Source of the DNA: Microbacterium sp. SYP-A9085
GTDB lineage: Bacteria; Actinomycetota; Actinomycetes; Actinomycetales; Microbacteriaceae
DNA: 64,000 bases
Direction: 5' to 3'
Assembly: GCF_009649635.1 (NCBI RefSeq)
Contig: NZ_WJII01000001.1
Span: 248,001-312,000, forward strand
How positions within the stretch are numbered: position 1 is the first letter of the stretch; every line of letters begins with the position of its first letter. Under the pieces are notes generated by a model that was given only the letters and a program-made list of their open reading frames with translations, did not search any database and was not told where the DNA came from. Both the position numbers and the translations under genes were made by a program. Positions 23,165 to 35,656 of the stretch are shown here, piece after piece.

Positions 23165-23965
23165 TCATGCGGGGACCGGCGGGCGGCCCATGACGCGGAA
23201 GGAAATCGTCACCACCGCCACCGCGCCCACGGCAACCAGGGCAGCGACCGCCGCTGCCACCGAGTGTGGCTCGCCGGTCAACCGCGCCACGGCCACCCAA
23301 ACGAGCCCCCAGCACAGCGAGAGAGCGGGCGCCAGGCGCCCGAAGCTACGCCAGGCCAGTGCTGCTCCGACGGCGCCCGCCATCAGGAGCACGATAACCG
23401 CCCAGACATCCGCGGACGGGCCTCCGGTGAACCCCGCCGCAACCAGAACAGCGGTGATGTTCGCGGCGGTGGCCACACACACCCAGCCGAGATACAGTCC
23501 GATGACCCCGTCCACCAGCACGGTCTCGACCCATCCGCTGCTCCGGGTGTCGGCGCATACGAGGAACGAGAAGGCGAGGACGGCAAGCAGCAGCACGATC
23601 ACGACCACGCTGACCAGCAGCCATCCGGCCTGCACGCTGAGAATCCAGGCGGCATTCAATGCGAGGGATGCCGCCACCCAGTAGCCGAGCCGCCGTAGCC
23701 GCGGAGAGGCGGTCTGTGCAGGTAGAGCCTGCCAGACCGCGAATGCGGCCAAGCCCAGGTAGATCATCGACCAGATCGCGAAGGCGGGGACGGCCGGTGC
23801 GATCCGGGTCGCGTCTGCGGCCAGTGCACCCCCGGCCGCTTCCTGGATGGGGGTGCCGCCGAAGGCCCCGGATCCGACAGCGGCTGAGATGATCGCGACG
23901 ACGGCAACGACGATCACGACGGTCTGCCGGACGCGGTCTGCGGGGTGGATGCTGGCATTGTTCAC
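23165..23965 (-). CDS. TspO/MBR-like tryptophan-rich sensory membrane protein of the carotenoid operon
   Basis: A 266-residue integral membrane protein with about seven hydrophobic helices. The FAIWSMIYLGLAAFAVWQA and LNAAWILSVQAG blocks resemble the W-rich repeats of the TspO/MBR family, although the protein is longer than classical TspO (about 160 residues). GTG 23965 overlaps the crtI stop (GTGA) and follows GAAGGAGCC. TspO proteins bind tetrapyrroles and modulate pigment gene expression in photosynthetic bacteria. Its place as the fourth coupled gene of a crt operon suggests a pigment-linked role, but this is inference. It could alternatively be an uncharacterised family. Confidence 0.75.
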   Translation of the reverse strand: MNNASIHPADRVRQTVVIVVAVVAIISAAVGSGAFGGTPIQEAAGGALAADATRIAPAVPAFAIWSMIYLGLAAFAVWQALPAQTASPRLRRLGYWVAASLALNAAWILSVQAGWLLVSVVVIVLLLAVLAFSFLVCADTRSSGWVETVLVDGVIGLYLGWVCVATAANITAVLVAAGFTGGPSADVWAVIVLLMAGAVGAALAWRSFGRLAPALSLCWGLVWVAVARLTGEPHSVAAAVAALVAVGAVAVVTISFRVMGRPPVPA

Positions 23966-25521
23966 AGTGGCTCCTTCAACGGTCGGGTGGAGGTGTCTGC
24001 GCGCAGGCGCTTGATGACGAGTTCCGCGCTGATCAGGCACATCGGCAGACCGATGCCCGGGATCGTGCTCCCCCCGGCGTAGAACAGGCCCTCGATCTTC
24101 GCGGAAGCGTTTCGCCCGCGCAGGAACGCGCTCTGGCGAAGGGTGTGCGCCGGCCCCAGCGCACCGCCCCGCCAGGCGTTGAGCTCGTCGGCGAAGTCCG
24201 CCGGACCCGCCGTGCGTCGCACGACTATCCGCTCGCGCAGGTCGGGGATGTCCGCCCACGCGGCGATCTGCTCGACGGCGTCATCGGCGACCCGTTCCAC
24301 AACCGGGTCTCCCCCACCGGATTCGCCCCCATGTCCGATGGTGACGTCGGCGGGTACCGGCACCAGCAAGAACAGGTTCTCACAGCCGTCCGGAGCCACC
24401 GTGGGATCGGTCGCACTGGGCCGACATACGTACATCGACGCGGGACGGGGTATCGCGGTCGGGGTGTGGAAGATCGCTGCGAAGTTGTCCTCCCAGTCCT
24501 TCGTGAACAGCAGAGTGTGGTGGGCGAGTTGCGGCAGCTCGCCGGTGACACCCAGGCAGACCACCACGGCGCCCGGGCCGGGGGATCGCTTCTCCCACCA
24601 TCGCTCGGGATAGGTCTGCAGTCGCCTCGGCAGAAGAGCGGTCTCGGTGTGGTGCAGGTCGGCGGTCGAGACGACGCAGTCAGCGGCCACGGTCTCGGCA
24701 CGGCCGGCGACATCCTCGATCCGGACGCCGGTGACCCGTGCCTTGCCTGACCGGGTGATCGTCTCGATCGCGGTCGCGGTCACTCCGGTACGGATCACCA
24801 CTCCCGCCCCGACCGCAAGCCCGCGGATGCGCTCAATGACGCGAGCGATCCCGCCGATCGGGTACCACACGCCCTGGTCCAGATCGAGATGGCTCATCAG
24901 GTGATAGAGACTGGGCGTGAGATGGGGCGCGGACCCGAGGAAGACTGCCGGGTATCCGAGGATCTGTCGCAGTCGCCGGTCTGCGAACGAGCGCGCGACG
25001 AAAGAGTCCAGAGGTTCCCGCAGAAGCCGGGGCAACCGCGTCGCTCTGGCAAGCACGGCTCGGGTCACGAGGGGGCGATAGGCGGCGAAGGTGGTGTACA
25101 GGAACGAGTCCAGCGCCAGCCGATATGTGTCCGCGGCGGAATCCAGATACCGCACGAGCCTGAGGCCTGCACCCGGTTCGATTCGCTCGAACAGGTCGGT
25201 CACCGCCCGCCGGCCGCTGCGCACATCGACGGGGAGATCGTCGTCCTGAAACAGCACCCGGTAGCCGGGGTCGAGCAGTTGCAGGTCGAGCTGGGCCGGA
25301 GTCCTGGTGCCCATCAGGTGGAAGAAGTGATCGAAGACCTCGGGCATGAGATACCACGACGGTCCCGTGTCGAACCGGAAGCCCGCCTTCTCCCACGACC
25401 CGGCGCGGCCGCCGACCTGGTCCCGGGCTTCGAGCAGCGTCACGTCATAGCCGGAGCGCGCAAGCAACGCAGACGAGGCGAGGCCGGCGATGCCCGCGCC
25501 GATCACGACGGCTCGGCTCAC
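23962..25521 (-). CDS. crtI: Phytoene desaturase CrtI
   Basis: A 519-residue FAD-dependent phytoene desaturase converting phytoene to lycopene. The N-terminal dinucleotide motif is VVIGAGIAGLASSALLARSG (residues 5-24), followed by EARDQVGGRAGSWEKAGFRFDTGPSWYLMPE in separate short blocks. The C-terminal carotenoid-desaturase signature is FYAGGSTIPGIGLPMCLIS. Length is normal. The start ATG overlaps the crtB stop and its stop overlaps the TspO-like gene, so crtE-crtB-crtI-tspO are one coupled operon. The number of desaturation steps (three or four) cannot be read from sequence; the downstream cyclases imply lycopene. Confidence 0.95.
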   Translation of the reverse strand: MSRAVVIGAGIAGLASSALLARSGYDVTLLEARDQVGGRAGSWEKAGFRFDTGPSWYLMPEVFDHFFHLMGTRTPAQLDLQLLDPGYRVLFQDDDLPVDVRSGRRAVTDLFERIEPGAGLRLVRYLDSAADTYRLALDSFLYTTFAAYRPLVTRAVLARATRLPRLLREPLDSFVARSFADRRLRQILGYPAVFLGSAPHLTPSLYHLMSHLDLDQGVWYPIGGIARVIERIRGLAVGAGVVIRTGVTATAIETITRSGKARVTGVRIEDVAGRAETVAADCVVSTADLHHTETALLPRRLQTYPERWWEKRSPGPGAVVVCLGVTGELPQLAHHTLLFTKDWEDNFAAIFHTPTAIPRPASMYVCRPSATDPTVAPDGCENLFLLVPVPADVTIGHGGESGGGDPVVERVADDAVEQIAAWADIPDLRERIVVRRTAGPADFADELNAWRGGALGPAHTLRQSAFLRGRNASAKIEGLFYAGGSTIPGIGLPMCLISAELVIKRLRADTSTRPLKEPL

Positions 25522-26411
25522 TTCAGCGTCCTCCGCAGTCCTGTCAGCTGCGCGCGTAGGACGATGATGGCCTTGCGCGCTCCGGACACGCGCACGCGCG
25601 TGGTGAGCAGCTGCGCGGCTGGCACCGCACGCGCGCGAACGCAGAGCGCCCGGAACAGGTCATGTGCGGCCAGCACGGCCGCTCGGCTGCCCCTCGGCAA
25701 CTCGTCGATGATCGAGTGTGCTGCCAGAAGGTCGACTTCGATGTGGGTGACCAGTTCGTCCCGTTGGGCATCGGTCAGCCGCTCGGGGGTGATGCCCGGA
25801 AAGTAGTTCCTTCCCAACTGCCGCCAGTCCTCGGACAGATCGCGAAGGAAATTGATCTTCTGGAAGGCAGCGCCCAGGCGACGGGCGCCGGCTTCCAGGC
25901 GTTCGCGCTGTTCTTCTGTGACCGGTTGATCCAGCAGAAAGACCCGCAGGCACATGAGGCCGACGACTTCGGCAGAGCCGTAGATGTAATCCTCGATGTT
26001 CCGCGTGGTGAACGGCGCAGGATCGAGATCGCGACGCATCGAGGCGAAGAACGGGCCCGTCAGCTCTGACCCGATACCTGCGGCCCGTGCGGTTTCGGCG
26101 AAGGCATGAACGACAAGATTCGTGCTGTACGCGGTGGCCACGGCGCGGTCGACGTCCTCCTCCAGCGCGTCCAAGATCGCCCGCTGGTCATCGACGCTCA
26201 GCCCGGCGGCGGCGGCGGCGCCATCGACGAGCTCATCGGCGATACGCACCAGACCGTAGATGTTGCGGATATGAACGCGCACCCGCGCGTCGAGGAGACG
26301 CGTGGCCACGCCGAAGGACGTCGAGTAGTGCCCGATGACCCGCGCGGCACTGGACTGCGCGCAACGGCTGTATCGCGCGAGGCTCGTCTCCTCCGTGGTG
26401 CTCGCGGTCAT
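25518..26411 (-). CDS. crtB: Phytoene synthase CrtB
   Basis: A 297-residue squalene/phytoene synthase condensing two geranylgeranyl diphosphates to phytoene. Both aspartate-rich magnesium sites are present: RIADELVD (56-63) and NFLRDLSEDW (187-196), and YYSTSF-like HYSTSFG lies near residue 29. The stop overlaps crtI by ATGA and the start overlaps the crtE stop likewise (26408-26411). Length is typical for actinobacteria. Confidence 0.95.
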   Translation of the reverse strand: MTASTTEETSLARYSRCAQSSAARVIGHYSTSFGVATRLLDARVRVHIRNIYGLVRIADELVDGAAAAAGLSVDDQRAILDALEEDVDRAVATAYSTNLVVHAFAETARAAGIGSELTGPFFASMRRDLDPAPFTTRNIEDYIYGSAEVVGLMCLRVFLLDQPVTEEQRERLEAGARRLGAAFQKINFLRDLSEDWRQLGRNYFPGITPERLTDAQRDELVTHIEVDLLAAHSIIDELPRGSRAAVLAAHDLFRALCVRARAVPAAQLLTTRVRVSGARKAIIVLRAQLTGLRRTLK

Positions 26412-27481
26412 CGCATCCGCCCTCCCGCCACCTCGGCGACCTCGCCGAGGTGCTCTCGCAGAGCCCGGGGGATACTGAGGTCGCTGAGTGCCGCCTGCGC
26501 TGCTGCGACATGCTCGGCGACGAGGTCTTCGACGGCTGCGCGCGCGCCGGAGACCTCCAGCAGTCTGCGCGCTTCAGCCTCATTCGACACCGCGCCATCC
26601 CGCCCTAACGCCTCCAGCAGAGCATCGCGGAACGATGTCTGCAGCGCATAGGCCACCAGCGGGGTCATCGTCGCACGGCGCAGGTCCGAACTGGTGCTCT
26701 TGCCCATGTCGGTGAACCGTCCGAACACGCCGAGGAGGTCGTCGCGCAGTTGGAACGCCGTGCCCGCGTGGCGGCCGTAGTCGTCGAGCGCGGCGAGGAC
26801 CGAATCGGCAGCACCGGCGATGATCGCACCGGCTCGCAACGGGGCCCGGAACGAATAGTGGGCCGTCTTCGCGTCGCTCATCGCGAGCACCTCCGGCAGC
26901 ACCGGCGGAAGCACACCGGTCGTGAGCCCGACATCCGCCAATTCGCCGGCGGCAGTCACGGCGAGAGACTCCTCCATCAATTCGAGTAGTAGTCGGCGCT
27001 GCGCGGGTTGCAGCGCAGCAGCAGCCACGAGGCCCTGCGCGGCGTGGATGAGGAGGTCGCCTCCGAGGATGCCTGCCGCCTGCGCCCAGGCGAAGGCCGC
27101 GGACTCGCCGCGGTGCAGCGCCTGCGCACGGAACGCGCCGACCAGGTTCGGGCGCCCGCGTCGGATCGTGTCGTCGTCGATGACATCGTCATGCATGAGG
27201 AAAGCCGTATGGAGCAACTCGAAGGCGACCGCAACCTCGACGGCGGCTTCATGCTCCGCGCCGCCGAACGCCCGGTGGGTGGACGTGACAAGCGCCGGCC
27301 GGATCCGCTTTCCGCCTCTGGTCGCCTCGTGAACCTGCTCCCAGAGGGCCGTGAACGCGGCGCCCAGTTGCCGAGCGTGCACAAGACGCTTCGCGAAGAA
27401 CTCGTCGAGCCGTTCATCGACCGCGGCAGCATCCTCAAGGTCATGCGACACCGATGAAAGTATGGCGACCCCATTGCCCAT
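26408..27481 (-). CDS. crtE: Geranylgeranyl diphosphate synthase CrtE (polyprenyl synthetase)
   Basis: A 357-residue trans-polyprenyl diphosphate synthase making the C20 precursor of carotenoids. The first Asp-rich motif is HDDVIDDD (97-104) followed by RRGRP; the second is QLRDDLLGVFG (244-254), whose final Asp is replaced as in other actinobacterial IdsA/CrtE proteins. KRIRPALV (58-65) is the diphosphate-binding block. ATG 27481 follows GGGGGAAGCC. It is the first gene of the crt operon and faces the MarR regulator, with only 77 bp between starts. Confidence 0.93.
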   Translation of the reverse strand: MGNGVAILSSVSHDLEDAAAVDERLDEFFAKRLVHARQLGAAFTALWEQVHEATRGGKRIRPALVTSTHRAFGGAEHEAAVEVAVAFELLHTAFLMHDDVIDDDTIRRGRPNLVGAFRAQALHRGESAAFAWAQAAGILGGDLLIHAAQGLVAAAALQPAQRRLLLELMEESLAVTAAGELADVGLTTGVLPPVLPEVLAMSDAKTAHYSFRAPLRAGAIIAGAADSVLAALDDYGRHAGTAFQLRDDLLGVFGRFTDMGKSTSSDLRRATMTPLVAYALQTSFRDALLEALGRDGAVSNEAEARRLLEVSGARAAVEDLVAEHVAAAQAALSDLSIPRALREHLGEVAEVAGGRMR

Positions 27482-27513
27482 GGCTTCCCCCAGAATCCGT
27501 CTCGCTCGGCAGG

Positions 27514-27552
27514 AATGTAGCCTAGCATGCAATATCCATTCGCAGATATGAT
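27514..27552. promoter_or_regulatory. Divergent crtE/marR control region with inverted repeat
   Basis: ATATC (27532-27536) and GATAT (27545-27549) are inverted with an 8-bp spacer. TATGAT (27547-27552) is a good -10 box that ends 6 bp before GTG 27559, pointing to a leaderless marR transcript; no clear -35 is seen. On the minus strand TACATT (27519-27514) could serve crtE. A MarR dimer bound at the repeat would affect both genes. Confidence 0.45.
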
Positions 27553-27558
27553 CAGATC

Positions 27559-28113
27559 GTGAACGCACCCCCCGCCGAGCCCGATGCCACGCATCGGATG
27601 ATCGACCCCCGCGTGCTCGACCCCCGGGGCGATGTGGTCGACTACCTGGCGATGAATGACGCCGAGGTGACACAGGTCGTTCGCGTGCTCGCGGCGATGA
27701 GGCGATGGCGTGAGGCGGAAGAGCAGATGAGCCTGCATTCCCGCAACCACATGAAGCTGAACGAGACCGACATGAAGGCACTGCGATTCCTTGTGGCGGC
27801 AAAGAACGAGGGCCGCACCGTCACACCCGGGGCGCTGTCCGAACATCTGCACATCTCATCGGCATCCACGACCAAGCTCCTCGATCGGCTCACCGCCGCG
27901 GGTCACATAGAACGCGCACCACACCCCTCCGACCGGCGGGCTGTCGTGGTCACAATCATGCAGAGCACACACGAGCAGGTTCGTGACACGGTGGGTGTGC
28001 GCCAGGCGCGCCGGTTCCGCGTCGCGGCAGCCCTCTCGCCGCAAGAGCGTGAAGTCGTCATCCGCTTTGTGAACGCGTTGGCTGACACCGCCGCAGACCA
28101 GCCGACGTCGTGA
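27559..28113 (+). CDS. MarR-family regulator of the carotenoid cluster (CrtR-like)
   Basis: A 184-residue MarR protein. The winged helix covers about residues 70-130, with VTPGALSEHLHISSASTTKLLDRLTAAGHIER and the wing HPSDRRAVVVTI (shown here in parts). It is encoded divergently from crtE, the same arrangement as CrtR of Corynebacterium glutamicum, a MarR repressor of crt genes that responds to GGPP. A like role is inferred from position. GTG 27559 appears to be leaderless. Its last 56 bp overlap the 3' end of crtU on the opposite strand. Confidence 0.9.
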   Translation: MNAPPAEPDATHRMIDPRVLDPRGDVVDYLAMNDAEVTQVVRVLAAMRRWREAEEQMSLHSRNHMKLNETDMKALRFLVAAKNEGRTVTPGALSEHLHISSASTTKLLDRLTAAGHIERAPHPSDRRAVVVTIMQSTHEQVRDTVGVRQARRFRVAAALSPQEREVVIRFVNALADTAADQPTS

Positions 28114-29725
28114 CATTCTCCTCACGCGGCGCATGGTCCCGTCGTGCTCGCGGCCTCGCCAGCAGGCCGCTCATGGGGACCGTCCAGACGTCGTGCCCTG
28201 CCAGACCCCAGCCGGCCAGCAACCGATCGGCGGCGAGGATACCGGTCGTCGCCGCCCGCTCCATCAAGGCCACTGGATAATCGCACCGCACAGCGTCGCC
28301 CGCCAGCACAAGTCGCGACCAGGGCGTGACGACGCCCGGACGCGCGGCCCACTCCTCGGGGGTGATCACGGGGCAGTCATCCCTCACCAGAATCTCCCGA
28401 TGCAGCGTGGCCGCCGATGCGGTCTCCGGGTAGATGCGGTGCAGTTCACGTTCCATCCGCGCAACAAGCCGAGCAGCGGCGCACGGGTCCAACCCCACCG
28501 TCGCGTCGCAGGCGTAAGCGTGGAGTTCGATGACGGATCCGCGATGACCTGCCGACCAGGTGGCGGCGCCCTGTTCGAATCTCTCGAGCACCGTCACGTT
28601 GTCGACCGGTCCGTACCCGCTCGTACCAACGAATGCGGGGCGGGACTCGTCCACCAGTGTGTCCAACCACAGCCGCACCACGGTGAACGGGGGCGCATTC
28701 TGCGTGCGGCACACCTGTTCCCGCCACTGCGCTCCACCCGCAGCATCCAAGCCTTGGACGAGTGCGCGGGCGGCTCGGGGGTCTGCAGCCAGCACCACCG
28801 CGTCCGCGGCGATCCTCTCATCGCCTGTCGTCACGATGGCGGCACCATCGGTGAGGTGGATGCTCGTGGCCGAAGCGCCTGTGCGGGTGGTCACACCCTG
28901 CGCGTGGAGGTGGCTTCCGAGGGGACCCCAGAGCGTTGAGTCATAGTCGTCGACGGGCACATCGAACAGCAACCCCTCGGCCGATCCGAGGAAGTAGGTG
29001 TGGAACATGGCGATCAGCTCCCCGGCGGCGAAGTGCTCCGGGTGCGCGAAGAACGACCGCGCGAAGACCTCGAGCGCGAGATCCCGCGCGCCGGCGGGGA
29101 AGCGCAGCCGCTGCAGAAACGCTGCCGCCGATTCGCCGTCGTAGCGCGAGAACGTCTCGGGGAACGACACGCGCAGAAGCTCGACAGCGGCCGGGATGTT
29201 GACGCGGGCGAGCGTGCGAACAGTGAAACCGGAACTGCGTCGCATGAATCCGAGAACGCTGAACGGCGGTGTCCGGGGAAGACCTGCGAACGAGTCGCGA
29301 GTCCCATCCGACCGCTGCAGAGGGTAGTCCTCCACCGGCATGAGGCTGACGAGTCCGGGATCGGCCCTGCGTAGAAGTGATCGCAGGTTGTAGTACTGCC
29401 GGAAGAAGGCGTGGAAGCCACGGCTCATGGTGCGCCCATCTCCGGTCGGCCACGCGGACACCCGCCCCCCGAGCCGGTCACCCGATTCCAGCAGCGTCAC
29501 CCGGATGCCGCGGTCAGCGAGCGATGCGGCCGCAGAGAGCCCTGCAATCCCCCCGCCGATCACCACGACGTGCCGTTGCACGTCCGACTGCATCTCGCCC
29601 GGGGTTCCCGGGTGTCGGACGGCCCTGCGGTCGCGTCCGGGCCGCGCGACACGATGCCCACCGGGTTCGGCGCTCCGGTGCCGATGCGTCTGACTGCGGC
29701 GCACTCGATCAGGTCTCGACGTCAT
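28058..29725 (-). CDS. crtU: Isorenieratene synthase / beta-carotene desaturase-methyltransferase CrtU
   Basis: A 555-residue FAD-dependent enzyme. After an Arg-rich leader, VVVIGGGIAGLSAAASLADR binds FAD. Then come RGFHAFFRQYYNLRSLLRR, VEDYPLQRSDGTRDSF and FHTYFLGSAEGLLFDVP, which identify CrtU, the enzyme that desaturates and migrates methyl groups on beta-ionone rings to give aromatic carotenoids, rather than a second CrtI. The C-terminus has RLVLAGDAVRCDYPVALMERA. ATG 29725 overlaps crtYd by 17 bp and has GGAA 9 nt upstream; ATG 29593 is a shorter alternative without the leader. Product expected: isorenieratene via beta-isorenieratene. Confidence 0.88.
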   Translation of the reverse strand: MTSRPDRVRRSQTHRHRSAEPGGHRVARPGRDRRAVRHPGTPGEMQSDVQRHVVVIGGGIAGLSAAASLADRGIRVTLLESGDRLGGRVSAWPTGDGRTMSRGFHAFFRQYYNLRSLLRRADPGLVSLMPVEDYPLQRSDGTRDSFAGLPRTPPFSVLGFMRRSSGFTVRTLARVNIPAAVELLRVSFPETFSRYDGESAAAFLQRLRFPAGARDLALEVFARSFFAHPEHFAAGELIAMFHTYFLGSAEGLLFDVPVDDYDSTLWGPLGSHLHAQGVTTRTGASATSIHLTDGAAIVTTGDERIAADAVVLAADPRAARALVQGLDAAGGAQWREQVCRTQNAPPFTVVRLWLDTLVDESRPAFVGTSGYGPVDNVTVLERFEQGAATWSAGHRGSVIELHAYACDATVGLDPCAAARLVARMERELHRIYPETASAATLHREILVRDDCPVITPEEWAARPGVVTPWSRLVLAGDAVRCDYPVALMERAATTGILAADRLLAGWGLAGHDVWTVPMSGLLARPRARRDHAPREENVTTSAGLRRCQPTRSQSG

Positions 29726-30035
29726 CGGCCGGTTCCGTTGTCCGGGCACGCAACCAGACGACGAGGGTGAGCGTGACCATTGCGAACCCGAACCCGAAAT
29801 CCTCGACCGGGATGTCCCAGGGGAACCGGATACCGGAGAACTGCGCAGCGTCGTATTGAACGATCGGGGCGGTCAGCTTCGTGAGCCATCCATCCACGAG
29901 GACCTGGAATCCGAACACGATCGCCATCGTGATCCAGTACCGCGCCGAACCGAAGATCCCTGTGCGCGCCCACACCACTTCGACCAGGACGACGGCGGCG
30001 AGGGCGGCGAGGGTGAGAGCACTGTACTCAGGCAC
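29709..30035 (-). CDS. crtYd: Lycopene beta-cyclase subunit CrtYd
   Basis: A 108-residue membrane protein with three hydrophobic helices and the family motif DIPVEDFGFGFAM (near residues 73-85), in which the Pro-x-Glu-Asp group is conserved in heterodimeric lycopene cyclases. It pairs with CrtYc encoded just upstream; GTG 30035 overlaps the crtYc stop by 8 bp. The two subunits together close lycopene ends. Beta rings are inferred because CrtU, which needs them, is next in the operon. Confidence 0.88.
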   Translation of the reverse strand: MPEYSALTLAALAAVVLVEVVWARTGIFGSARYWITMAIVFGFQVLVDGWLTKLTAPIVQYDAAQFSGIRFPWDIPVEDFGFGFAMVTLTLVVWLRARTTEPADDVET

Positions 30036-30432
30036 CCCTACCGCCGCCCGTCTCCGCGTATCCGTCGGCCCGGTCGCGGACGAGGCCGTCCGGCCAGCGA
30101 AATCGCAGGCGCCCCGGTGTGCGGGCCAAGCGAATGATCTTGCCCACCGCCTCGAAGGTCAGCACGCCGCACAGGGGGATCACGAGGAAGAACACCAGCT
30201 CTTCCACGGGGATGACTCCGAGCCTCAGCCCCGTGACGTAACGATCGTTGTAGGTCCAATGTCCCCGGACGATGCCGGCGAGATCCCATAGCGTGAAGGC
30301 CACGAACGTCGGGAGCACCGCTATCAGTAGACGTCGCGGTGACCGGTAGACCCGCGCCCCGACCACGAACTCCAGGGGAAGAGTGATCACGACGCACGCG
30401 GCCATGAGGAGCAGGTACTGTTCATGCCCCAT
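30028..30432 (-). CDS. crtYc: Lycopene beta-cyclase subunit CrtYc
   Basis: A 134-residue membrane protein with three helices. TLPLEFVVGARVYRSPRR near residue 18 and VIPVEELVFFLVIPLCG near 73 are the two conserved blocks of CrtYc/CrtYe-type cyclase subunits, with the PVEE motif intact. ATG 30432 follows GAGGAGGATTC, a strong ribosome site. It is the first gene of the crtYc-crtYd-crtU operon and is divergent from the cytochrome P450 gene (66 bp between starts). Confidence 0.9.
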   Translation of the reverse strand: MGHEQYLLLMAACVVITLPLEFVVGARVYRSPRRLLIAVLPTFVAFTLWDLAGIVRGHWTYNDRYVTGLRLGVIPVEELVFFLVIPLCGVLTFEAVGKIIRLARTPGRLRFRWPDGLVRDRADGYAETGGGRGA

Positions 30433-30461
30433 GAATCCTCCTCGACGATCCGGATTGCATC

Positions 30462-30475
30462 CTGATCTAGATTAG
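30462..30475. promoter_or_regulatory. Near-perfect palindrome between crtYc and the P450 gene
   Basis: CTGATCT/AGATTAG forms a 14-bp palindrome with one mismatch, centred between the two divergent starts. TAGATT (30468-30473) inside it could be a -10 for the P450. The CTGATC half also occurs, on the minus strand, in the crtE/marR gap (27550s), so one regulator might act at both places. Confidence 0.4.
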
Positions 30476-30498
30476 AGCCAAGCGAGAGGAAGTGCCGC

Positions 30499-31704
30499 GT
30501 GACTGAGACGAACAGTTCCCGGCGTGCCACCCGACAAGGCGACGACGCCGAATCGAGGGTGGAACACCACGGCGCGGTGTGGCGGATCCGATCGCTGCAC
30601 CTTGCGCGCCAGATACTCGCAGCGCGCGATGCCACCACGCAGGCAGGGTTCACCGCCGAAGCGATCCCGAAGGGGTATCTCCGACATCATCCGATCCTGA
30701 TCTCGGATGGGCCGCTGCACGACGATCAGCGACGCAAGGTCGGCCGGTTCTTCGCCCCCCGGGTTGTCGCGGAACGGTACGGCGACGACATGTGCCGTAC
30801 TGCGGCGCGGCTGTTGGACGACGCCGCGCGACGTGGCTGCTGTCGGCTGGATCAGATCGCCCTGGAATACACCGTCGAGATCACCCGCCGTGCGATCGGG
30901 CTGGAACACTCCTCAGTGGCGGGCATGTCCCGCCGACTGGAAGCGTTCTTCCGGCAACCGCCGTTCGACATCACCGCGCCGAAGCTGGGACGCAGCAAGC
31001 GTCAATGGGCACTCGCGGCCTGGAACGGCCTGCTCCCCGTCCTCCGGTTCTGGTTCGCTGATGTCCGTCCCGCCATCCAGGCCCTCCGGAAGTCCCCGAG
31101 ACAGAACGTGATCAGCCACCTCATCGCTGAGGGATACAGCAACACGGACATTCTCGTGGAGTGTGTCACCTACGGCACGGCGGGCATGGTGACCACGCGC
31201 GAATTCCTCACGATGGCCTGTTGGCACCTCCTCGACGACGATCCGCTCCGCAATCGGTACCTGCTCGCCGAGCGCGAGGAGCGTCACGCGATCCTCGAAG
31301 AGATCATCCGCCTCGAGCCCGTCGTCGGACATCTCTACCGCCGCGTGCGATCCGAACTGACCATCTGCGAAGACGACCACGAGTGGATGCTCCGCCCCGG
31401 CGACCTCGTCGACGTGTGCGTTCGCCCGGCCAACGCCGACAAGGCCGATGTCGGCGAGAACCCGCTTCTGATCTGCCCCGGTCGCGACATGCGCCATGGA
31501 GTAGACCCCGCCGGTCTTTCCTTCAGCCACGGTCCACACAAGTGTCCCGGTCATGCTCTGGCCATCGCCGAGGCCGACGCGTTCCTCACCGACCTGCTCC
31601 GCCGGCGACCCACTCTCGTCACGGCACCACGACTCGACTGGGACGACCTGGTCACCGGCTACACGTTGCGCGGCATGATCCTCGGAATGAGCAGCCAGAC
31701 ATAA
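30499..31704 (+). CDS. Cytochrome P450, candidate carotenoid ring hydroxylase
   Basis: A 401-residue soluble bacterial P450. Helix I has YGTAGMVTTRE near 225-235 (AGxxT), the ExxR pair is EIIR (268-271), and the heme loop FSHGPHKCPG has its cysteine ligand at residue 349. There is no membrane anchor. Redox partners are not encoded nearby. It faces crtYc across a 66-bp gap carrying a shared palindrome, which argues for membership of the carotenoid island. In Brevibacterium linens, hydroxylation of isorenieratene to the 3,3'-dihydroxy form is reported to depend on a P450, so the same role is proposed here by inference. Confidence 0.9.
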   Translation: MTETNSSRRATRQGDDAESRVEHHGAVWRIRSLHLARQILAARDATTQAGFTAEAIPKGYLRHHPILISDGPLHDDQRRKVGRFFAPRVVAERYGDDMCRTAARLLDDAARRGCCRLDQIALEYTVEITRRAIGLEHSSVAGMSRRLEAFFRQPPFDITAPKLGRSKRQWALAAWNGLLPVLRFWFADVRPAIQALRKSPRQNVISHLIAEGYSNTDILVECVTYGTAGMVTTREFLTMACWHLLDDDPLRNRYLLAEREERHAILEEIIRLEPVVGHLYRRVRSELTICEDDHEWMLRPGDLVDVCVRPANADKADVGENPLLICPGRDMRHGVDPAGLSFSHGPHKCPGHALAIAEADAFLTDLLRRRPTLVTAPRLDWDDLVTGYTLRGMILGMSSQT

Positions 31705-32142
31705 GATCGCATGGTCACGATGAGGATCCGGCGGCCGGTGATCCGACGGAGGTCCTCGAGCAGGGCGGCCTCGGATCATGTCCTCCTTGAGGTTCGATGC
31801 CGCTGCGGGCACATCGGGCACCACGCATCCGCCTCCGGAAGCGCAGCTCGTCGACGGACGGCCTGATATGACCGCTCCGCAGCAGATCGAGGCAGCCAAC
31901 CACCTTGTGGATGCGGGCCGGACGAGGCGGTCGCGCTGACTCTGAGCGGGGACGGCGCCGTGGTCGTCTCGTCGGAGGGCGCCCTGCGTGTTCCGACGCC
32001 TCGGGTTGCGGTGTGCGCGCCGACGAGGTCGAGCGCCTCGAGAATGCGCCGATGTTCTGAGCGTGCCCCGGGCGTGTGCACGGGCAGTTCCTGATCAATC
32101 ACGTGCAGATCGGTGCGACATACGCTCACGGTAATCACACGG
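31705..32142. pseudogene. Gene debris: frameshifted small ORF and zinc alcohol dehydrogenase fragment
   Basis: No intact gene fills this 438-bp stretch. On the plus strand, ATG 31868 begins TAPQQIEAANHLVDAG; the reading then continues only after frame changes as DEAVALTLSGDGAVVV (from 31921) and ADEVERLENAPMF with a stop at 32060. That succession through all three frames looks like a broken small gene of unknown family. On the minus strand, 32138 down to about 32070 encodes VCRTDLHVIDQELPVHTPG, the start of a zinc alcohol dehydrogenase, with no continuation. The rest is unassigned. Confidence 0.45.
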
Positions 32143-32231
32143 CGGAGACGGAGGGATTTGAACCCTCGGTCCCCTTACGAGGACTCCACCTTAGCAGGGT
32201 GGTGCACTAGGCCTGACTATGCGACGTCTCC
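32143..32231 (-). tRNA. tRNA-Ser (GCU anticodon)
   Basis: An 89-nt class II tRNA. The acceptor arm GGAGACG/CGTCTCC is perfect, with a G discriminator. The anticodon arm CCACC-CTGCTAA-GGTGG gives GCU. The long variable arm is as expected for serine, and the T-loop GGTTCAAATCC is standard. The terminal CCA is not encoded. It reads AGC/AGU codons. Confidence 0.95.
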
Positions 32232-32374
32232 CCGCATCAGAGCCTGGGCCCAGACGCGTCTGTCCATGATAACCGGTCCGCCGACGACCGACGAACCGCA
32301 GGAAATAGGGCATTCGCCCGATGTACGCGGGGTACCTCAGCGCGGAGCGTAGATGGTGCAACCAAGGAGACACC

Positions 32375-32584
32375 ATGACTCTGCACCCTTCACTCGGCTA
32401 CACGATCATCACCCAGGAGCTCGAGGAGCGCGCCCGTCTCGCCGAGCTCGACCGTTTCATCAAGGAGCACCCGGACCAGGTCCTCCGACCCGCCCGGGGC
32501 CGGTGGGCGCGGCTGATTCACCGCATCCTCCCTGCCCGGGCCTCGTCCCGGTCGCTTCAGGCGCCGTGCGAGACGGCGTCCTGA
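32375..32584 (+). CDS. Small conserved-looking protein of unknown function
   Basis: A 69-residue basic protein. The N-terminal half is predicted helical (ITQELEERARLAELDRFIK), then a basic stretch (RGRWARLIHRILPARAS). ATG 32375 has a strong AAGGAGACACC ribosome site, which supports real translation. No known motif. It lies 56 bp before the LuxR-type giant regulator and may be co-transcribed with it. Confidence 0.7.
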   Translation: MTLHPSLGYTIITQELEERARLAELDRFIKEHPDQVLRPARGRWARLIHRILPARASSRSLQAPCETAS

Positions 32585-32640
32585 TCGTCCGGCGGCCGAT
32601 CCGCGCGGACCGTGTCCGAGGGGGCTGGCACCATGGAGGA

Positions 32641-35559
32641 ATGCCCTTCACCGCCAGCGCCTCGCCGAGCGCCGCCCGCATGGTCGGCCGCGACGAGGAG
32701 CGCGCCCGGCTGATGGCGCTGTTCGACCGGGCGTCCGCGGGCGAGCCGTCCGCGGTCGTCGTGGCCGGCGAGGCCGGCATCGGCAAGTCCCGCCTCCTCC
32801 GCGAGTTCGCCGACGCGGTGGCCGACAGGGCGGATGTCGCCGTCGGCCGCTGCGTCGACCTCGGCGGCACCCCCGCCCCGTACGGCGCGATCCTCGGGCT
32901 GCTGCGCGATATCACCGCGCAACGCGGCGCCGCCGACGTCTGGCAGGCCGCGGGCCCCGGACGTGCGGCGCTGCTCCTGCTGATGCCCGAACTCGCGGAG
33001 GCCCCCGAGGTCGCGGCATCCGCCTCCCCCACTGCGGCCGTGACCAGCCCCGACCGGCTGCGCGAGGCGTTCGTGACCGCCGTGGAGTCGCTGGCCGAGC
33101 ACCGCCCGCTTGTGCTCATGATCGAGGACCTGCACTGGGCAGACGAGGGCACGCTCACCCTGCTGTCGTTCCTGTTACGCGTCGTCACGCGCGGTCGCCT
33201 GCTCGTCGTGCTCGGCTGGCGCACCGACGAGGGCGGCCGCAGCGACCCGGTGCGCCTGTTCCTCGGCGAGGCGGAGCGCGCCCACCTCATGGAGCGGATC
33301 ACGCTCGACCGGCTCGACCCGGCATCCGTGCGCACCCTCATCTCCACCCTCACCCGGATCGACGACCCCGAGGTCCTGCACCGCCTCGAGGAGCGTGCAG
33401 AGGGGATCCCGTTCTTCGTCGAGGAGCTCTCGCGCTGCGCCGACGGCCCCCTCCCCGACACGCTGCGCGACATCCTCCTGGCCCGCTACGGGCTGCTGGA
33501 CGAGGATGCCGCGGCCGTCGTCCGCGTCGTCTCGGCATCCGACGCCCCGCTCGAGCACGAGACGCTCGCGGCGGTCAGCCGACTCGACGAGGGCCGGCTC
33601 AACGACGCCATCCGCGCGGCGGTCCGCACCGGCATCCTCGTCGTGGACGACGACCGGTACGCCTTCCGGCACGCGCTGCTGCGCGAGGCGGTCCACGGCG
33701 AGCTGCTGCCCGGTGAGCGCGCGTCGCTGCACCGCGCGTACGCCGAGCACATGCAGGCGCTGATGGATGCCGACCCGCGCCGCGATCTGCACGCAGCTCT
33801 CGCCCACCACTGGCAGTATGCGCACGACCGGCGACGGGCGCTCATCGCCGCGGTGACCGCCATGTTCTCCGCGAAGGCCCGCTACGCATTCTCGAGCGCG
33901 GCCCGCTTCGGCGGGCTCGTCCTGGAACTGTGGGATCAGGTCGACGACGCCGAAAAGGCGGCCGGCATCGACCGGCTCACGCTCATGCTGCGGATCGGCT
34001 CGATCCTGCGCAACGCCGGCGACAGCGAACGCGCCCTGACCGTCGTCGACAGCGCACTCGCCGATGCTCGCCAGACCCGGATCGATCCCGTCCTGCACGT
34101 CCGGCTGCTGCGCGACAAGGCCGTATACCTCACGAATCTCGCCCGGCCGGGATCCGTCGACCTCCTGCGACAGGCCCTCACGATCATCCAGGGACAGGTC
34201 GACGACGATCGCCTCAGCGCCGGCGTGCTGTGCAACCTCGCCGGCCGCTACATGGTCGCCGGGCACTTCCCCGAGGCCATCGACGCATCCACACGTGCGT
34301 GGGACTGCGCGGTCCGCGCCGGCGCCGAGCAGGAGATGTCGGTGGCCCGGAACGTCCGCGGCGGCTCGCGCGCGCACGTCGGCGATCTGGACGGCGCGTT
34401 CGACGACTACACCGCCGCCCTCGAGCACGCATCGGACCCGTCCGCGAAACTGCGGTACCGGGTGAACTACTCCGACCTGCTCACGATCCTCGGGCGCTAC
34501 CGCGAAGCGCTGACGATCGCCGAGGAGGGGCTCGCGCAGGCGCGCGCGCTCGGCGTCGAACGCACGTCGGGGTCCCTGATGACGCAGAACATGGTCCAGC
34601 CGCTGCTCGAGCTCGGCCGGATCGACCGCGTCGACGAGCTGCTCGCGCAAGATCTCGAGCAGCGCACATTCCCCGTGTTCCGCATGTACACCACGACCTC
34701 CCGTGTGCGCGCGCTGGCCTGGCACGGCCATCAGGAAAAAGCCGCCGCCCTGTTGCGCGAGCAGCAGGCGGCGCTGGAAGCCGCGGAGATCACGGAGCGC
34801 CAGGTCTGGTACTACCGGCTTCACGCCCGCATCGCGATCGCCCTGTCCGCCGGCGACCCGGCGGCGGCGTTCGACGTCGTGCGCGAGATGCTCGACGACG
34901 ACGGACCGCAGGCCGCCCACCGCGTCCGCATTCTGTTCGAGGCCGCCGCCATCATCGGCGCCCTGCACGCGCGGGGCGTGGGCGTGGCCGACGCCGTCTC
35001 CCAGGTGCGGGATGCCTGGACGGCAGCGCCCGAGCCGCTGCGGCCCGCCGCGTGGAACGGGATCCTCGACGCGCTCCTCGCGCCCGACCCGGATGCGCTC
35101 CAGCATGCCGTGATCCTCGCCGACGGCGACGACATCCCGGCGACGTTCCGCGTCGTCACCCGGCTCGAACTCGCGCGGAGCCTCGTCGCGGCGGGGCGGC
35201 GGACGGATGCCGCCGACGTGCTGTCCGAGGCATCCCGGATCGCCGCCGAGCTGGCGCACGTGCCGCTGCAGCGCGCCGTCGCCGAGTTCGGCGCAGCGTC
35301 CGGTCTCGTGCACGAGCACAGGGATGCCGCGGCCGGGCCGCTGCTCGCCGAGCTCACCGCCCGCGAGCGTCAGGTGCTCGAACTGCTGGCCGAGGGACTG
35401 AGCAACGGCCAGATAGCGAAGCGGCTGTTCATCAGCGTCAAGACCGCGAGCGTGCACGTGTCGGCGATCCTGCGCAAGCTCGGCGTCGCAACGCGCACCG
35501 AAGCCGCCGTCATCGCGACCAGCGGTCGCGTCGCCGTGGCCCACAGCGCCGACGGCTGA
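32641..35559 (+). CDS. LuxR-family transcriptional regulator with AAA ATPase domain (LAL/MalT-like)
   Basis: A 972-residue large ATP-binding LuxR regulator. The N-terminal AAA module has VGRDEERARL, Walker A GEAGIGKS (43-50) and a Walker B-like LVLMIEDLHWADEGT near 160. A long helical tetratricopeptide-like middle follows. The C-terminal LuxR helix-turn-helix starts LTARERQVLELLAEGLSNG and continues IAKRLFISVKTASVHVSAI. ATG 32641 sits directly after GGAGG, closer than ideal. No ligand or target genes can be named, and the neighbours (tRNA, HAD phosphatase) give no hint. Confidence 0.9.
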   Translation: MPFTASASPSAARMVGRDEERARLMALFDRASAGEPSAVVVAGEAGIGKSRLLREFADAVADRADVAVGRCVDLGGTPAPYGAILGLLRDITAQRGAADVWQAAGPGRAALLLLMPELAEAPEVAASASPTAAVTSPDRLREAFVTAVESLAEHRPLVLMIEDLHWADEGTLTLLSFLLRVVTRGRLLVVLGWRTDEGGRSDPVRLFLGEAERAHLMERITLDRLDPASVRTLISTLTRIDDPEVLHRLEERAEGIPFFVEELSRCADGPLPDTLRDILLARYGLLDEDAAAVVRVVSASDAPLEHETLAAVSRLDEGRLNDAIRAAVRTGILVVDDDRYAFRHALLREAVHGELLPGERASLHRAYAEHMQALMDADPRRDLHAALAHHWQYAHDRRRALIAAVTAMFSAKARYAFSSAARFGGLVLELWDQVDDAEKAAGIDRLTLMLRIGSILRNAGDSERALTVVDSALADARQTRIDPVLHVRLLRDKAVYLTNLARPGSVDLLRQALTIIQGQVDDDRLSAGVLCNLAGRYMVAGHFPEAIDASTRAWDCAVRAGAEQEMSVARNVRGGSRAHVGDLDGAFDDYTAALEHASDPSAKLRYRVNYSDLLTILGRYREALTIAEEGLAQARALGVERTSGSLMTQNMVQPLLELGRIDRVDELLAQDLEQRTFPVFRMYTTTSRVRALAWHGHQEKAAALLREQQAALEAAEITERQVWYYRLHARIAIALSAGDPAAAFDVVREMLDDDGPQAAHRVRILFEAAAIIGALHARGVGVADAVSQVRDAWTAAPEPLRPAAWNGILDALLAPDPDALQHAVILADGDDIPATFRVVTRLELARSLVAAGRRTDAADVLSEASRIAAELAHVPLQRAVAEFGAASGLVHEHRDAAAGPLLAELTARERQVLELLAEGLSNGQIAKRLFISVKTASVHVSAILRKLGVATRTEAAVIATSGRVAVAHSADG

Positions 35560-35571
35560 CCAGTCACACCG

Positions 35572-35656
35572 CGGAGGGTGTGGGATTCGAACCCACGGGA
35601 CATTGCTGCCCACTGGTTTTCAAGACCAGATCCTTCGGCCGCTCGGACAACCCTCC
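35572..35656 (-). tRNA. tRNA-Ser (UGA anticodon)
   Basis: An 85-nt class II tRNA. Acceptor arm GGAGGGT/ACCCTCC with G discriminator; anticodon arm CTGGT-CTTGAAA-ACCAG gives UGA; a long variable arm and T-loop GGTTCGAATCC are present. CCA is not encoded. It lies 12 bp from the stop of the LuxR gene, on the opposite strand, and upstream of nothing else on its strand for 2.9 kb. Confidence 0.95.

Follow-up and report, generated by a model that had tools for sequence, protein, structure and literature searches.

The isorenieratene cluster of the cheese bacterium Brevibacterium was reportedly set out by Krubasik and Sandmann in 2000 and by Dufosse and de Echanove in 2005. It serves here as the point of comparison for a carotenoid (crt) gene cluster of Microbacterium sp. 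SYP-A9085, at positions 23165-31704 of a stretch of 64,000 nucleotides (contig NZ_WJII01000001.1, 248,001 to 312,000), which we refer to as the window. 3-Hydroxy- and 3,3'-dihydroxyisorenieratene are associated with B. linens and B. aurantiacum in a review (PMC12096840), and in B. aurantiacum isorenieratene is described as hydroxylated by a cytochrome P450-dependent monooxygenase (PMC12096840, citing Dufosse and de Echanove 2005). The gain of CrtU in Brevibacterium by displacement of C50 genes has been proposed earlier (PMC2889829). In Corynebacterium glutamicum, CrtR, a MarR protein encoded divergently from crtE, represses the crt operon (PMC5401885). Genes listed near crtR include a P450 and crtU (PMC5401885). 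Isoprenoid pyrophosphates are reported to interfere with CrtR (PMC5401885; PMC7432914), and light-dependent CrtR control has also been reported, by a group that did not reproduce the effect of geranylgeranyl diphosphate (PMC6739363). The Rhodobacter TspO sits among crt genes and lowers their expression (PMC10604819), and in Mycobacterium kansasii a tspO adjoining a photolyase gene is light-induced (PMC9861118).

Judged from its genes, the window cluster probably encodes a pathway for a hydroxylated aromatic C40 carotenoid, a reading to which we give a probability of about 0.7. The pathway is of a known kind, as in Brevibacterium, and apparently combines a resident part with an acquired part. 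The presence, order, linkage and kinship of the genes are direct observations. Nine open reading frames fill positions 23165-31704: crtE-crtB-crtI-TspO, a MarR gene, crtU-crtYd-crtYc and a facing P450.

23165..23965, minus strand: TspO-like membrane protein of 266 amino acids (PF03073, 25.6 bits, cut-off 24); start overlaps the crtI stop (GTGA)
23962..25521, minus strand: crtI, phytoene desaturase (TIGR02734, 569.9 bits)
25518..26411, minus strand: crtB, phytoene synthase (PF00494, 123.4 bits)
26408..27481, minus strand: crtE, geranylgeranyl diphosphate synthase (PF00348, 161.5 bits)
27559..28113, plus strand: MarR-family gene, CrtR-like (PF12802, 47.4 bits); same position in related clusters
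28058..29593, minus strand: crtU, beta-carotene desaturase/methyltransferase (isorenieratene synthase); PF01593 (flavin adenine dinucleotide, FAD, protein), 50-70% identity to CrtU-type proteins of crt clusters
29709..30035, minus strand: crtYd, lycopene cyclase subunit (TIGR03462, 59.9 bits, cut-off 39.4)
30028..30432, minus strand: crtYc, lycopene cyclase subunit (TIGR03462, 80.3 bits, cut-off 39.4)
30499..31704, plus strand: cytochrome P450 of a crtU-linked clade, probable isorenieratene ring hydroxylase (PF00067, 30.6 bits, cut-off 22.8; crtU linkage; tree)

With crtE, crtB, crtI, a beta-type lycopene cyclase (crtYc/crtYd) and crtU all present, the cluster holds the gene set for isorenieratene, and the first-pass annotation, which had predicted this product, is borne out by Pfam/NCBIfam matches to all the genes it named. 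The steps up to isorenieratene follow from known families: CrtE would form geranylgeranyl diphosphate, CrtB phytoene and CrtI lycopene, after which the CrtYc/CrtYd pair would give beta-carotene and CrtU the orange aromatic pigment isorenieratene. The top NCBIfam match of CrtU (query protein started one codon upstream of the annotated ATG, 28058..29593) is HpnE, a related family, at 162.1 bits and under its cut-off of 283.05. Because no dedicated model is among the families listed, the name CrtU rests on the neighbours and on kin in other crtU clusters. Starts and stops overlap by four bases at crtE/crtB (26408-26411), crtB/crtI (25518-25521) and crtI/tspO (23962-23965, GTGA). The MarR gene, not named in the first-pass annotation, is divergent from crtE, with 77 bp between them, and its 3' end overlaps that of crtU by 56 bp.

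The P450 would then add hydroxyl groups to the aromatic rings, with 3-hydroxy- and 3,3'-dihydroxyisorenieratene as the most likely products. It is divergent from crtYc across a gap of 66 bp and carries the P450 signatures EIIR (ExxR, residues 268-271) and FSHGPHKCPG (FxxGxHxCxG, 342-351). We infer its substrate, as we do the regulation and the role of TspO discussed below. Among 398 genomes sampled of the family Microbacteriaceae, crtU is found in three, and the P450 in the same three. Across named genomes, crtU lies within 62 of 82 fetched P450 stretches, in several orders and orientations; these comprise the best 80 of 100 relatives, kept from a scan with an alignment of three crtU-linked P450s as query, plus two further loci. 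Sixteen of the 20 remaining genomes have crtU elsewhere, some of these matches being partial and at contig ends. The tree places the proteins of B. linens ATCC 9172 and B. aurantiacum ATCC 9175 (L063, L065) in the same clade. On these counts the facing P450, which the first-pass annotation had linked to the hydroxylation reported in B. linens, is a partner of crtU and akin to the Brevibacterium enzyme. The crtU-adjacent P450 would be the gene responsible for the hydroxylation in B. aurantiacum. One P450 clade thus offers a candidate gene for the hydroxylase activity reported in cheese bacteria, and this clade follows crtU across many actinobacterial families.

The linkage has limits of its own. 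In a sample of the class, 59 of 306 genomes have crtU and 20 have a P450 match at E 1e-40 or better. Four of these reach at least 45% identity over most of the length, and all four have crtU, adjacent in three; of the 16 other P450 genomes, three have crtU. The P450 clade, as far as the sequences go, is a mark of a subset of crtU clusters. Within the genus, crtU occurs in two of 149 genomes. The second congener (G529, L143) has a P450 adjoining crtU, both of another, Leucobacter-like type and in a different gene order, which suggests two separate gains of crtU/P450 within one genus. The P450 tree groups the same-family loci with Leucobacter.

The relatives of the strain carry genes for a different pigment class. 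The window CrtI was searched in 20 relatives, its own genome included, and was found in 12; the 11 other loci, from ten congeners and one same-order genome, were read at 12-15 kb. A CrtEb-like gene lies close beyond crtI in all 11, one of them scoring 430.5 bits with NF009608, which we take to be the lycopene elongase model. The window has none, in line with the earlier remark that Microbacteriaceae more often carry C50 genes and that crtEb is missing here. Neither the window nor the three UbiA loci of the genome nor six crtU clusters gave a match to a congener CrtEb query. The genome has a single gene above the CrtI family cut-off. The three UbiA genes are a haem O synthase, MenA and one near a type III polyketide synthase and an FAD monooxygenase. 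The last at first resembled a crtEb beside a CrtI-like fragment, as of a second carotenoid pathway. This candidate was rejected, the polyketide synthase and monooxygenase adjoining it and the congener CrtEb having no match to the UbiA gene. These three genes, on contig 6 (L142:8155-11975), perhaps form a prenylated polyketide or quinone cluster. Going by titles and the openings of abstracts, no open-access paper among those listed is evidently on a crtU cluster in Microbacteriaceae.

Brevibacterium linens and B. aurantiacum share with the window crtE, crtB, crtI, crtYc, crtYd and crtU, besides a P450 from the same clade and, in most loci, a MarR gene. However, their order is crtE-P450-crtYc-crtYd-crtU, with crtI-crtB apart in most, their P450 is about 49-56% identical to that of the window, and the Brevibacterium loci fetched have no TspO match, whereas the window has tspO. 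In Acidipropionibacterium thoenii, A. jensenii and Tessaracoccus sp. SD287 (L029, L059, L022), the eight genes crtI-crtB-crtE, marR, crtU-crtYd-crtYc and P450 have the same order and orientation as in the window, with identities of 57-58% for the P450 and 64-65% for crtU. Unlike the window, these three have no TspO match in the fetched stretch and a crtI of another lineage. The congener C50 clusters (marR, crtE-crtB-crtI, crtEb) resemble the window in their MarR gene, divergent from the crtE side, and in crtI, which groups with that of the window in seven of ten. They differ in having crtEb, with no match to the window crtYc, crtYd, P450 or TspO and no match of CrtU length.

The trees suggest that these likenesses have separate sources. 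For the P450, the window groups with A. thoenii, A. jensenii, Tessaracoccus sp. SD287 and Tessaracoccus oleiagri (support 90/93), and for crtYc/Yd with the Propionibacteriaceae trio (81); in the crtU tree it stands in a small set including Kocuria (86), inside a set of 83 with the same Propionibacteriaceae four. In the approximately unbiased (AU) test, crtU (p 1.4e-5) and the P450 (p 2.4e-4) both reject a single clade that unites the window with five other Microbacteriaceae, the Pseudoclavibacter row (L081) having been put on the other side. Grouping the window with the four Propionibacteriaceae is not rejected (p 0.14 and 0.19); these Propionibacteriaceae test groups were chosen once the gene order or the P450 tree was known. 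The crtI groups with the C50-cluster crtI of seven congeners (97/94), with three further congeners placed elsewhere in the tree; joining it to the Propionibacteriaceae trio is rejected (p 7.9e-5). Since crtU and the P450 have a different history from crtI, the cluster looks chimeric, with crtI of resident type and crtU and the P450, less clearly crtYc/Yd, of Propionibacteriaceae type. The idea has a precedent in the displacement proposed for Brevibacterium (PMC2889829). The locus is likely a case from nature in which a cluster for C50 pigments was converted to one for an aromatic C40 product. Fifteen Brevibacterium loci were thinned from the crtI, crtB, MarR, crtU and crtYc/Yd trees and from the crtI test. 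Rows were left out below 40% identity for crtI/crtB, below 30% for MarR, and below 50% identity or 75% coverage for crtU, as were loci L158-L180 (crtU) and L152 (crtI); the P450 AU test used 36 hand-picked rows.

Some results, concerning first the P450 and then the trees, weigh against a hydroxylating and partly acquired pathway. The cluster holds no identified ferredoxin or reductase. The electrons of the P450 would come from a ferredoxin encoded elsewhere, and a candidate donor is the only Fer4_15 match of the genome (C1:318600-318770, L225; about 39 kb from the P450), this being the one ferredoxin family searched. The first-pass annotation had suggested that the pathway could be complete and regulated; regulation is plausible through the CrtR-like MarR gene, and a complete set would also need such a redox partner. 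Four P450 genomes, all metagenome assemblies, have no crtU match, two of them (L023, L089) holding crtYc and crtYd at a contig end. The P450 searches are biased, since all their starting sequences were crtU-linked; the scan among them used three such proteins and retained the best 80 of 100 loci. In the class sample, 55 of 59 crtU genomes lack a close P450, and the P450 is therefore not part of every crtU pathway. This last count also favours a pathway that ends at isorenieratene, or a P450 that acts earlier or elsewhere, for example on beta-carotene ahead of CrtU, or on a different end group. The predicted model is an ordinary P450 fold with no information on the substrate, and the best solved-enzyme profile match, P450BioI, reaches only 69 bits; at such a distance from solved enzymes, the substrate cannot be read from the sequence. 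Additionally, the I helix reads AGMVTT in 88 of 88 clade rows (two genomes counted twice) and AGM[VI]TT in six rows outside, at a site where P450s usually carry an acidic residue. Such another role is nevertheless quite unlikely, given the linkage to crtU across several orders and orientations and a clade that includes the protein of B. aurantiacum, where P450 hydroxylation of isorenieratene is reported (PMC12096840). Ring hydroxylation stays the preferred reading.

On the side of the trees, the donor-group supports for the P450, crtU and crtYc/Yd are all unstarred, the Microbacteriaceae clade is not rejected for crtYc/Yd (p 0.13), and the crtB and MarR trees do not resolve. The unsettled crtB and MarR trees leave room for the whole cluster having come in one transfer from a Propionibacteriaceae-like donor, as would the eight-gene order identical in A. 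thoenii, A. jensenii and Tessaracoccus sp. SD287. A single transfer seems unlikely, however, with crtI placed beside seven congeners and its union with the trio rejected at the values given above, and the chimeric origin is preferred.

The position of the MarR gene, divergent from crtE, recurs in related clusters and in the congener C50 clusters. It is also that of CrtR in C. glutamicum, the window protein being likened to CrtR by gene position and family. A CrtR-type protein would repress crtE and be released by light or an isoprenoid precursor, and the CrtR-like gene plausibly makes the cluster a regulated unit. As candidates for an operator shared by the two divergent promoters, each of these has a short near-palindrome, and the two have a ten-base word in common but for a single base; these near-palindromes were not seen in the examined stretches of related clusters.

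The protein encoded behind crtI resembles three TspO entries, RsTSPO and BcTSPO among them, in its predicted fold across residues 8-180 (Z 12.7-13.5; next unrelated row 8.6). With the same model, Foldseek gave no match at E 0.001, the TspO 4ryi_A appearing at E 8.2 with a template-modelling (TM) score of 0.69 by target. Solved TspO chains have about 151-157 residues against 266 here, where further helices follow the TspO-like part (8-180). The GTG start lies inside the GTGA overlap with crtI, and AAGGAG stands five bases before it, which makes translational coupling of crtI and tspO plausible. TspO would thus be translated together with CrtI and would probably tune or sense the pathway. The first-pass annotation knew of no described case of such coupling. 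TspO among crt genes is known, as in Rhodobacter (PMC10604819), whose TspO, formerly CrtK, is likewise a TspO-fold protein encoded among carotenoid genes, and in 11 of the 82 P450 loci; the direct crtI-tspO overlap is seen only here among the loci examined. In view of Rhodobacter, M. kansasii and these 11 loci, TspO near crt genes is a known theme, and its direct coupling to crtI a local variation on it. TspO occurs in 13 of the 82 P450 loci, and in the 11 where it shares a stretch with crt genes, the nearest crt or P450 gene is no more than about 3.4 kb away; in some, TspO is followed by an idi-like gene (named by eye) and then by crtE-crtI-crtB-crtYc-crtYd-crtU.

Alternatively, tspO may be a resident passenger that came to lie behind crtI and does nothing in the pathway. 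With 188 of 398 genomes, TspO is widespread in the family; the 29 best other family matches have no match to the window crt genes in 1.5 kb flanks, and the 11 crtI loci of relatives are without TspO. The window protein is also closer to family TspO unlinked to crt genes (up to 65% identity) than to TspO of the P450 loci (38-49%). This reading is a serious contender but the less favoured one, as it sits poorly with the four-base overlap and ribosome-binding-like AAGGAG, with the window gene being the sole PF03073 match of the genome, with the 11 of 82 P450 loci, from other lineages, where TspO and crt genes share a stretch, and with the effect of TspO on crt expression in Rhodobacter (PMC10604819). 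A role in the pathway is preferred, and the locus offers a simple system for asking what TspO does beside carotenoid genes. In the most far-reaching version, the resident C50 branch would have given way to an acquired module for aromatisation and hydroxylation (crtU, crtYc/Yd, P450), and the sole tspO would have been drawn into the crt operon, its product now recognising the aromatic carotenoid by binding or sensing it and coupling pigment synthesis to light or porphyrin stress; this is speculative and improbable. Isorenieratene has been docked into a modelled human TSPO (PMC6627809), which opens the link to experiment but does not count as evidence on the bacterial side.

Elsewhere in the family (L099:2317-2796 and comparable loci among L093-L120), TspO often adjoins a separate MarR-family gene, mostly divergent; 14 of 30 TspO loci match one such MarR. 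In Propionibacteriaceae-like loci (L037, L089, L044, L049), a MerR-like regulator, recognised by eye and perhaps of the light-sensing B12 type, is divergent from tspO and the crt genes.

Base composition does not convincingly mark the cluster as an island: G+C is 66-68% between 24 and 32 kb and mostly 69-75% beyond, yet values of 66-67% recur between 12 and 18 kb. Beyond the P450, two tRNA-Ser genes (32141-32231 and 35571-35656) flank a LuxR-type ATPase regulator (32353-35559), and the first, about 440 bp past the P450, is a possible edge of an acquired region.

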